Shown here: piece by piece, positions 10,435 to 12,990 of the stretch
Numbering within the stretch: the first letter of the stretch is position 1
Layout of the letters: each line of letters opens with the position of its first letter
Virus record (IMG/VR): IMGVR_UViG_3300034072_002229
Span: 1-42,877 of that record
DNA from: a virus
DNA length: 42,877 bases
Strand: one strand, 5' to 3'
The notes under the pieces: generated by a model
Told to the model about the DNA's origin: nothing
What the model saw: only the letters and a program-made list of their open reading frames with translations
Database searches by the model: none
Translations under genes and position numbers: made by a program

Positions 10435-10905
10435 ATGAAAAAAGGAACATTGGTTTTACAAAGCCCACTGGATGCAGCTTATCAACTCGGTGAGCGCCAT
10501 AACGCCAGTGATATTGCCCGAAAGTTAGGTGTTAGCCCTGTCGTGATGGCCAACAAGTTAAACCCGCACCAGGAGTTTCACAAACTTAGCTTAGGCGAAG
10601 CTGTGGCTATTACAGAACTCACCAACGACAACGGCATTTTAGAAGCGTGGGCACATAGCCGTGGGTTGGTGCTGGTGCCGGTTCCTGATGGCGTAGCTTG
10701 CGACGAAGAGTTGAGCGACCAGTTATTAAAGCTGAGCGAAGTGATGGGGCAGGCCCTTGGTGCCGTTCGCGCAGCCCGCGCTGATGGTGTAATAGACCCA
10801 GTTGAGTTTGAACAGATTAAGCAGCAAATGTTGAGCGTGATCACCGAATCGAAAGCGCTGGAAACAGTAGTTGGTGAGCAGGTTCGGGAGCTAAAGGCTG
10901 TATGA
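10435..10905 (+). CDS. CII-like regulatory protein (156 aa)
   Basis: The N-terminal half ('DAAYQLGERHNASDIARKLGVSPVVMANKLNP') fits the phage regulatory CII family (Phage_CII type), with an HTH. The C-terminal half is helical and may mediate oligomerisation. Position cro-then-cII supports the call. Expected to activate lysogenic promoters. Confidence 0.75.
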   Translation: MKKGTLVLQSPLDAAYQLGERHNASDIARKLGVSPVVMANKLNPHQEFHKLSLGEAVAITELTNDNGILEAWAHSRGLVLVPVPDGVACDEELSDQLLKLSEVMGQALGAVRAARADGVIDPVEFEQIKQQMLSVITESKALETVVGEQVRELKAV

Positions 10906-11099
10906 GTGATGTGATTGATGATGCGGCAAAACAGCAGGACTTAAACCTGTCTATTGCGCTTAACAAACGCCAACCTCAGCTTGAACGAACTGGCCGTTGC
11001 CATTGGTGTAGTGCTCAAGTTCAAAGTGGTGCTGCCTTTTGCGATACCGAATGCCGTGATGATCATGCACAGCACACCCGGCTAAACGGCGGTTGGTGA
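10902..11099 (+). CDS. Small C4 zinc-finger protein (65 aa)
   Basis: 'CHWCSAQVQSGAAFCDTEC' contains CxxC...CxxxC, a compact zinc-binding motif seen in several small phage and host proteins (DUF2116-like). The start overlaps the cII stop by 4 nt. Function unknown; a nucleic-acid or protein adaptor is possible. Confidence 0.65.
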   Translation: MSDVIDDAAKQQDLNLSIALNKRQPQLERTGRCHWCSAQVQSGAAFCDTECRDDHAQHTRLNGGW

Positions 11100-11129
11100 A
11101 GATGTATCGCTCAGTGCTTTATTTCAGAG

Positions 11130-11630
11130 TGCTGACCGATGCTGGTGCTGGGGGCCTGATAACAGATGCCTCTGCCAGTCAAACCTTCGGTACAGCATCG
11201 TGTTGTATTAACCCACGTAACGATGGGTGTTGATTTAGTGTTGACTGCTGGAAAGACAGCACTGTTGTTCGCCGCTAATCCGGCTAAGCGCACGGGGGTC
11301 ATTAGATGGCCGACAACCCGGCTGGTAATGATGTAACCAGTCACTGGGAGGCACCCAGGGTAGCGAACAACAAACACTTCGGCGAAAGCTGATAAGCCAG
11401 ATAAGCGTTGCCGGATAGTGGCGGAGTGCTGGTTAGTTTCAGTTTATTGGTTTGGTGTCTTTGTCGGGCCCAGGCAGCGCAATGTAGGGGCTAAATGGAC
11501 GCTTGCGCAGATGCCAAACCAATGAGCTGGTAACCGGAAGGTCTTTCTACGGACACGCCGGGTTAAACAGTGAGAAGCGTAGGCCACAGCTTTAAGTGCG
11601 GTGCTGAGCAACGGCCAGCTCATTCATAAC
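11130..11630 (+). ncRNA. Candidate large structured non-coding RNA (about 500 nt)
   Basis: No convincing ORF covers 11100-11655 on either strand, yet the stretch is dense in perfect helices: 11137-11144/11193-11200 (8 bp), 11211-11215/11224-11228, 11246-11250/11257-11261, 11263-11272/11363-11372 (10 bp), 11299-11304/11326-11331, 11344-11348/11354-11358, 11446-11455/11514-11523 (10 bp, extendable to 15 with G-U pairs), 11477-11482/11503-11508, and 11521-11530/11615-11624 (10 bp). Three are long-range stems enclosing smaller hairpins, as in ornate phage RNAs. It lies in the rightward early operon directly upstream of the DHH gene. Strand is inferred from the operon; I cannot assign a known family. 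Confidence 0.65.
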
Positions 11631-11655
11631 TACGACAACAAACAGGCAGATAACT

Positions 11656-12495
11656 ATGAAACAACCACTTCTTTGCATTTACCACGCTAACTGTGCAGAC
11701 GGTTTTACTGCTGCATGGGCTGTTCGTAAAAAACACCCTGATACAGAGTTTCACCCGGGCACCTATGGCAAAGAGCCACCTGATTGCGCTGGCCGTGATG
11801 TGGTTATGGTCGATTTTAGCTATAAGCGTGATGTGTTATTGCGAATAGCTGCTGTGGCCAACACTGTGCTGATACTGGACCACCACAAAAGTGCTGCAGG
11901 TGATTTGGTTGATCTGCCGGCTAATGTAACGGCCATTTTTGATATGCATCGCAGTGGCGCCATGATGGCATGGAATCATTACCACCCTGATGTAAAACCA
12001 AATGACTTGTTAGTTCACGTACAAGATCGAGATCTTTGGTTATTCAAGCGCGAACAAACCAGAGCTTTTCAGGCCAATCTTTTTAGTTACGAATACACGT
12101 TTGAAAATTGGGATAGCATTGCCCAGTTGTGCGAAGACTCGTTTTGCTACAGCAGATTTGTAAGTGAGGGCGAAGCAATAGAGCGCAAACACTTTAAAGA
12201 CGTTAAAGAGCTGATCCGCGCAGCAGCTTATCGGTCGGTCATTGCTGGCCATGACGTTCCTACCTTAAACGCCCCGTACTTTTATAGTTCAGACGCTGGA
12301 CACCAAATGAACCAGGGCGAAGCCTTTGCAGCTTGTTACTACGATACAGCTGATAACCGTGTTTATAGCTTGCGATCACAACCGGATGGCGCGGACGTTT
12401 CGCTTATTGCAGCCAAGTTCGGCGGTGGTGGGCATAAAAACGCGGCTGGTTTCAGAATAGCACTAAGCGAGTTGAACCATGTCACGGCAGGCTAA
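11656..12495 (+). CDS. DHH-family phosphoesterase (279 aa)
   Basis: DHH phosphoesterases hydrolyse phosphodiester bonds in short oligonucleotides or cyclic dinucleotides with metal ions. Visible motifs: 'DGFTAAWA' (about 15-22), 'VVMVDFSY' (about 49-56), the signature 'LDHHKSA' (about 73-79), 'HVQDRDLW' in the middle, and a DHHA1-type 'FGGGGHKNAAGF' near the C-terminus. It follows the structured RNA with no intervening gene. Degradation of small RNAs or a cyclic-nucleotide defence signal are both possible; the sequence does not decide. Confidence 0.85.
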   Translation: MKQPLLCIYHANCADGFTAAWAVRKKHPDTEFHPGTYGKEPPDCAGRDVVMVDFSYKRDVLLRIAAVANTVLILDHHKSAAGDLVDLPANVTAIFDMHRSGAMMAWNHYHPDVKPNDLLVHVQDRDLWLFKREQTRAFQANLFSYEYTFENWDSIAQLCEDSFCYSRFVSEGEAIERKHFKDVKELIRAAAYRSVIAGHDVPTLNAPYFYSSDAGHQMNQGEAFAACYYDTADNRVYSLRSQPDGADVSLIAAKFGGGGHKNAAGFRIALSELNHVTAG

Positions 12496-12703
12496 ATTGG
12501 AAAAGCACTGCCAAAGCTGCAGTGCATTCTCAGACTGGTGCTGTTATTGGCTCTGTCTGTTTTGCTTCATGCCTTGGCTGCCGACAGATACAAAGGCACA
12601 AGCCATCGCAGTGATAACTATCACCCTCATATTGTTAGCCGTTACTGCTGCTTGGGCTTTAGTGCTTCATTTTAGCGCTGAAGCATTTGAGGGTGAGAAG
12701 TGA
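12479..12703 (+). CDS. Small two-span membrane protein (74 aa)
   Basis: Two hydrophobic segments (about 21-34 and 41-66) with a Cys/Trp-rich N-terminus. It overlaps the end of the DHH gene by 17 nt and ends over the convergent gene on the other strand. No family recognised, so confidence is modest. Confidence 0.5.
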   Translation: MSRQAKLEKHCQSCSAFSDWCCYWLCLFCFMPWLPTDTKAQAIAVITITLILLAVTAAWALVLHFSAEAFEGEK

Positions 12704-12990
12704 TGTTCAGCCATATCAGCCAAAACCTGCCTGGCATCGTCGGGCATGGTCCACAACTCAAACTCTTCAGACATTGCAAAGAGTATATCGGCCTGCGTCA
12801 TGGCTTGAATTTGGCCGCGCGTCCAGTGGTGTTTTTGCATCAGGAAGTAATGCACTGCATCAAGGCCTGTGTGTTTTTCATAGCCTTGCTGTGCTGCCAG
12901 ATGGTCGCCAAAAATGGCCAGCGTATAGCCTATACGGGCTTCTTCCAGCACTTTGCGGTAAAGGTCACGGTAATAAAGTTTGCGGTCCAT
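12667..12990 (-). CDS. Hypothetical protein on the minus strand within the rightward operon (107 aa)
   Basis: Helical, with normal protein composition ('MDRKLYYRDLYRKVLEEARIG', 'HHWTRGQIQAM', 'FAMSEEFELW'). The overlapping plus-strand ORFs at 12687-13127 have unnatural composition, so this strand is preferred. It opposes the surrounding early genes and would give antisense transcription there. No function recognised. Confidence 0.6.
   Translation of the reverse strand: MDRKLYYRDLYRKVLEEARIGYTLAIFGDHLAAQQGYEKHTGLDAVHYFLMQKHHWTRGQIQAMTQADILFAMSEEFELWTMPDDARQVLADMAEHHFSPSNASALK

Follow-up and report, generated by a model that had tools for sequence, protein, structure and literature searches.

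Hairpins placed between genes are known from the early region of phage T7, where they are RNase III sites, and from integrons, where the attC sites have conserved arms and differing interiors. The put RNA of phage HK022 is short and acts on the nascent transcript. According to PMC9378689, it is a structured RNA encoded among the early genes of a lambda-like phage, and it works as a processive antiterminator. Large structured RNA families from phages are few. Two of them, GOLLD and ROOL, are found in phages and prophages, often near tRNA islands, and their functions are open (PMC12286853). GOLLD has a conserved 3′ region and a variable 5′ region, with tRNAs sometimes present in the linker (PMC12286853).

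Here, we describe a structured RNA found in the window, by which we mean the whole 42,877-nucleotide stretch of viral DNA that was analyzed. A first-pass annotation had suggested that this RNA might be GOLLD, ROOL, or a similar large ornate RNA, or else a new family. Searches against Rfam 15 yielded no match in the window at gathering score to any family, including introns, tmRNA, riboswitches, and tRNA, and no match in the RNA region at E values up to 10. In three other loci carrying the RNA (L001-L003), the sole Rfam 15 match was the tRNA of L001. The GOLLD model alone (RF02032) did not match at E values up to 10, and the ROOL model alone did not match either, the latter being a weak single test as no control genome matched. 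These results speak against membership in GOLLD or ROOL, and a new family is supported. We found no description of this RNA in the literature, as covered by the titles and abstract openings of open-licence papers.

The structured region and its place in the early operon

The phage is lambda-like and temperate, and the window contains its right-hand early operon. Based on protein families, the order of this operon is CI, Cro, CII, a DksA-like zinc finger, the RNA, a DHH phosphoesterase, O, and P; CI is an S24 peptidase repressor, Cro is of the P22 type, and the phage also has an integrase. The RNA lies in a 556-nt gap from the end of the zinc-finger ORF (10902-11099, + strand; PHROG 54, E value 5 × 10−8), which lies directly upstream, to the start of the DHH ORF (11656-12495, + strand; PHROG 4771, E value 3 × 10−101). 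The RNA-bearing feature spans approximately 11104-11625 (~540 bases) and is composite, the core (11104-11434) being conserved and the modules after it optional. Further along the window, a 107-aa ORF of unknown function (12667-12990; PHROG 5286) is found on the minus strand, against the direction of the operon. Starting at 12689, the DNA of this ORF is 89-94% identical across three prophages that were compared, although the flanking stretches differ.

To assess the structure of this region, we compared its predicted folding energy and helix content with those of shuffled sequences. The + strand of the 556 nt folded at -214.7 kcal/mol versus -186.1 ± 6.4 kcal/mol for the shuffles (z = -4.48), below all 100 of them, and the minus strand of 11100-11655 had a z score of -0.94; for the core alone, the z score differed little by strand (-3.2 versus -2.6). 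Between 11130 and 11630, there were 16 perfect helices of at least 7 bp (shuffle mean 5.9). Exactly three perfect 10-bp helices were found in the same interval against a dinucleotide-shuffle mean of 0.07: 11263-11272/11363-11372 in the core, 11446-11455/11514-11523 in the module that we call H, and 11521-11530/11615-11624 in module B. The first-pass annotation had reported a structured, ORF-free region in the early operon with at least nine perfect helices, three of them of 10 bp, and no credible ORF. The fold and the helix counts bear this out, as does the ORF check: the longest ORFs in the region encode 56 aa (+ strand) and 88 aa (- strand), and no frame stays open across the homologues, the longest open stretch shifting from frame to frame. 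The small ORFs on both strands could speak for a decayed coding region or a chance fold, but this is extremely improbable in our judgment; the fold and helix counts lie beyond all or nearly all shuffles, the frames are not kept among homologues, and the covariation described below refutes it unless the alignments are wrong. We are highly confident that there is a structured RNA at this locus.

The conserved core and its distribution

Relatives of the core were gathered by means of the DHH protein and short exact patterns, followed by genome searches, resulting in eight distinct cores (the window and seven other phages or prophages) aligned over 392 columns. The other cores are approximately 81-94% identical to that of the window. 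The consensus fold of this ~330-nt core (11104-11434, + strand) has 102 pairs in 16 helices, P1-P16, and 97.4% of cells are paired over the eight sequences. Changes on both sides of a pair were seen at 8 pairs (13 cells), versus 4.4 (5.0) in shuffles and 0-2 with the partners slid, for a structure derived from the same alignment as these counts. As the cores are close relatives, many of their pairs never vary. Columns combining Watson-Crick and G-U pairs outnumbered those combining Watson-Crick and A-C pairs (17 versus 8), a measure that leans to the strand used for the fold. Outside of the stems, the alignment also has long invariant stretches.

The clearest compensatory changes in the core are in P1, P7, P8, and P11. 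P1 (11104-11142, + strand), which closely follows the stop codon of the zinc-finger ORF, is a 5′ hairpin of 16 pairs, one of them changing from A-U to C-G. Its 3′ arm, CGATGC, has an alternative partner after P2 at 11195-11200, in an 8-bp helix (11137-11144/11193-11200), and this alternative pairing may constitute a two-state switch. P2-P4 (11144-11194, + strand) form a long hairpin that is mostly invariant in sequence and contains the invariant stretch CAAACCTTCGGT. In the central domain, P6-P12 (11238-11377, + strand), the long-range 12-bp helix P8 (11264-11276/11359-11371) closes a junction with the hairpins P9, P10, P11, and P12. P8 has a G-C to A-U change in three sequences, P7 has a G-C to U-A change, and P11 has compensatory changes at three pairs. 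At the 3′ end of the core is the hairpin P15-P16 (11395-11434, + strand), which is missing from the truncated copy L103. The multi-domain fold anticipated from the window alone thus finds support in compensatory changes among eight homologous cores; covariation was found and no frame was conserved, and so neither of the outcomes that the annotation had named as refuting it, a lack of covariation and coding conservation, occurred.

Next, we considered which phages and hosts carry the core. Apart from phage contigs, the only carriers found were prophages in the genus of Rheinheimera mesophila. Three genomes had the core, Rheinheimera mesophila IITR-13 and two more from the same genus; no others had it among 395 genomes of the family, 22 of the genus, and 295 drawn from the order, in collections that are incomplete. 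A covariance model built on the central domain (R1) found nothing beyond the known group in 62 loci and the 295 genomes of the order. Named phages and plasmids had no match to the RNA region, and named phages had none to the 3′ modules or to the early segment 10435-12495. Four contigs with the AACAAACACTTCGGCGA pattern (L086-L089) were rejected as core carriers, with at best a marginal core match (L088, E value 0.06). In one genome, two copies of a prophage segment (L106 and L107, G316:C1:1468000-1507800) lie 24 kb apart, are 99.99% identical over 15.8 kb, and each carry the same truncated core.

A fourth genome of the genus has a CRISPR array (L131; G193:C58, about 54042) with I-F-like repeats, 50 of which were found in the locus. 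The array, with a spacer at locus position 1494, has one spacer that matches the stem of H and another that matches module E of L003; others match the window phage, including one that falls within the DHH gene. A host in the genus of Rheinheimera mesophila is supported by these matches of spacers from a fourth genus genome to the window phage, L003, and H. We also considered an anti-CRISPR RNA mimicking the CRISPR repeat of G193; no such motif is in the islands.

Interchangeable modules 3′ of the core

The genes downstream of the core differ from carrier to carrier. The core precedes the DHH gene in the window and in L001-L003, and it precedes other genes in L084, L085, L102, and L103. In a search with the model of the central domain, the DHH genes of L004-L042 had no core nearby. 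Every core that was inspected lies directly 3′ of a zinc-finger ORF of the DksA-like kind. As the sequence 3′ of the core differs between carriers and the core always follows the zinc-finger ORF, the DHH gene is an incidental neighbor of the RNA, and the significance once attached to the placement of the RNA before this gene falls away.

Between the core and the next gene lie modules that vary in length and kind. In the window, the core is followed by H, B, and the DHH gene. In L001, the order is H, further modules, a second H, tRNA-Arg, C, and DHH, and in L003 it is H, E, D, a second H, B, and DHH, while L002 has unrelated sequence and then DHH. L084 has a small ORF, tRNA-Arg, C, and another ORF; L085 has H, B, C, and another ORF; in L102 another ORF follows the core at once, and in L103 another ORF follows the truncated core. 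Modules B, C, D, and E thus recur in differing combinations. The B module of the window (11521-11624, + strand) is a domain closed by AATGAGCTGG/CCAGCTCATT and is also found in L003, L085, and L123. By eye, the alignments of C, D, and E have compensatory changes, and as read from its alignment, E may form an H-type pseudoknot, with UCACGG/CCGUGA and AGGCGG/CCGCCU as stems. The pattern of E was not found in the 22 genus genomes. tRNA-Arg is found 3′ of the core only in L001 and L084 (two of the eight core loci), the window having no tRNA, and most modules have neither a tRNA nor a tRNA-like remnant beside them.

The H module of the window (11440-11529, + strand) is a 21-bp stem, 11440-11460/11509-11529, around a variable interior of 48 nt. 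Its 18 instances keep 19-21 of the 21 pairs, with interiors of 37-133 nt that have no evident shared sequence outside of close relatives. To our knowledge, a constant stem with unrelated interiors is known from no catalogued phage RNA. Compensatory changes are found at several pairs of H: L123b has such changes, as does L164, a prophage in another genome of the family, in which T-A becomes G-C. Nearly all one-sided changes yield G-U pairs on the + strand. Bases 11521-11523 belong to the 10-bp helices of both H and B. Over 11521-11529, the base of H competes with the stem of B; because they share these bases, the two stems cannot both form fully at the same time.

Beyond the core loci, H recurs in one more prophage and at least 10 more phage contigs, sometimes beside tRNAs, and some contigs with H yielded no core. 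It follows CII in L192 and SSB in L113 and L118, precedes the terminase small subunit in L157, and lies between the portal and major head genes in L146. In L128 (4605-5399), the H hairpin and an island of tRNA-Lys and tRNA-Tyr are flanked on either side by tail genes, which are encoded on the opposite strand. A weak tRNA match comes just after H in L119, and by eye the interior of H in L113 is tRNA-like. H-like matches in G382 and G285 were rejected as they have no right arm. Those of G285 appear to be coding repeats. Those of G382 (L166, L185, L188, L190, L191) are repeats of the left arm only, 0.5-3 kb apart on one contig, and resemble the cassette sites of an integron.

These features bear on two other explanations. 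First, the inverted repeats could act as DNA, in a replication origin or a recombination hotspot. The region lies just upstream of the O and P replication genes, the pattern of modules looks recombinational, and repeated H stems could promote exchange. We nevertheless consider this very unlikely, as G-U pairs are kept on one strand of H, whereas DNA palindromes would be symmetrical, the whole region folds above chance on one strand only, and compensatory changes are found in long-range pairs of the core. Second, the region could serve mRNA processing or stability, with P1 and H as RNase III sites that part the cII and O/P messages and interiors of little function. Near-perfect stems of 16-21 bp, interiors of H that are mostly unrelated in sequence, and the presence of H between genes of structural operons would all fit such a role. 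It is rather unlikely in our view, given the long invariant stretches of the core outside of stems, the complex folds kept by other modules, including the pseudoknot-like E, and ~330 conserved nt, which is more than a processing site needs.

Proposed function and comparison with known RNAs

With about even confidence, we propose that the region encodes a non-coding RNA of a new family that is released from the early transcript by ribonucleases and acts in trans. The + strand RNA would belong to the early right (PR-like) transcript, in which it would lie between the CII and zinc-finger genes and the replication genes. Its ~330-nt core would fold around the closed multi-hairpin domain P6-P12, followed by interchangeable modules, namely H with its variable interior, B, C, D, the pseudoknot-like E, and sometimes a tRNA. 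Host ribonucleases would cut the early transcript, the 21-bp stem of H being long enough for RNase III, and the stable folded RNAs so released would act in trans in early infection or induction. Trans-acting RNAs are favored by the conserved structure, the swapping of modules, the lack of a fixed downstream gene, and the antisense unit of L128. Around the core, we saw neither a promoter nor a strong terminator, and a discrete RNA is accordingly putative. As modules swap and the interiors of H are unrelated, a role against host defense or competing phages is suggested. A broader and more tentative possibility, in which we have limited confidence, is a system not described before, in which phages of the Rheinheimera group and their relatives maintain a repertoire of swappable folded RNAs that are expressed early, act in trans, and are selected for diversity. 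This repertoire would comprise the core RNA, constant-stem hairpins with unrelated interiors, pseudoknots, and tRNA-like pieces, and its members would be, for example, decoys or inhibitors of host defense.

The main rival to a trans-acting RNA is a cis element of the early operon, in which the nascent RNA acts on its own RNA polymerase, as put does in HK022, or otherwise sets the expression of the replication genes. The fixed place 3′ of the zinc-finger gene in the PR operon suits such a role, differing downstream genes are compatible with an antiterminator, the 3′ arm of P1 has an alternative partner, and a lambdoid phage offers a precedent (PMC9378689). Nonetheless, we think a cis element unlikely. 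We saw no convincing intrinsic terminator after the core and no sequestered ribosome site. The modules between the core and the next gene vary in length and kind, and H modules are also found elsewhere, including the unit antisense to tail genes in L128. Moreover, the RNA is far larger than put. The RNA lends itself to experiment: it is compact and lies in a readable lambda-like operon, at least one carrier, Rheinheimera mesophila IITR-13, is sequenced and named, and natural versions exist in which single modules are missing or added. It is therefore straightforward to delete it, to map its transcripts, and to complement it in trans.

Taken together, we judge that this large, modular phage RNA represents a new family, similar in kind to GOLLD and ROOL and a member of neither. 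Like GOLLD (RF02032), it is a large multi-domain RNA of phages and prophages with one conserved and one variable part. In contrast to GOLLD, the polarity is reversed, with a conserved 5′ core and variable 3′ modules, tRNAs are found in only two of the eight core loci, and there is no match in sequence or structure. ROOL (RF03087) is likewise a large ornate RNA of phages and prophages that is often near tRNA islands (PMC12286853), but it does not match, and the core alone measures ~330 nt against the 574 positions of the ROOL model. The likeness to HK022 put is that of a structured RNA in lambda-like early genes, here with CI, a P22-type Cro, CII, O, and P as neighbors; this RNA differs in having ~330 nt plus modules and in its place in the operon, after CII. 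Finally, H alone resembles the RNase III sites of T7 and integron attC sites in being an intergenic hairpin, and attC sites also in having conserved arms and differing interiors, but its arms are 21 bp long, its G-U pairs are kept, and its interiors are mostly unrelated.
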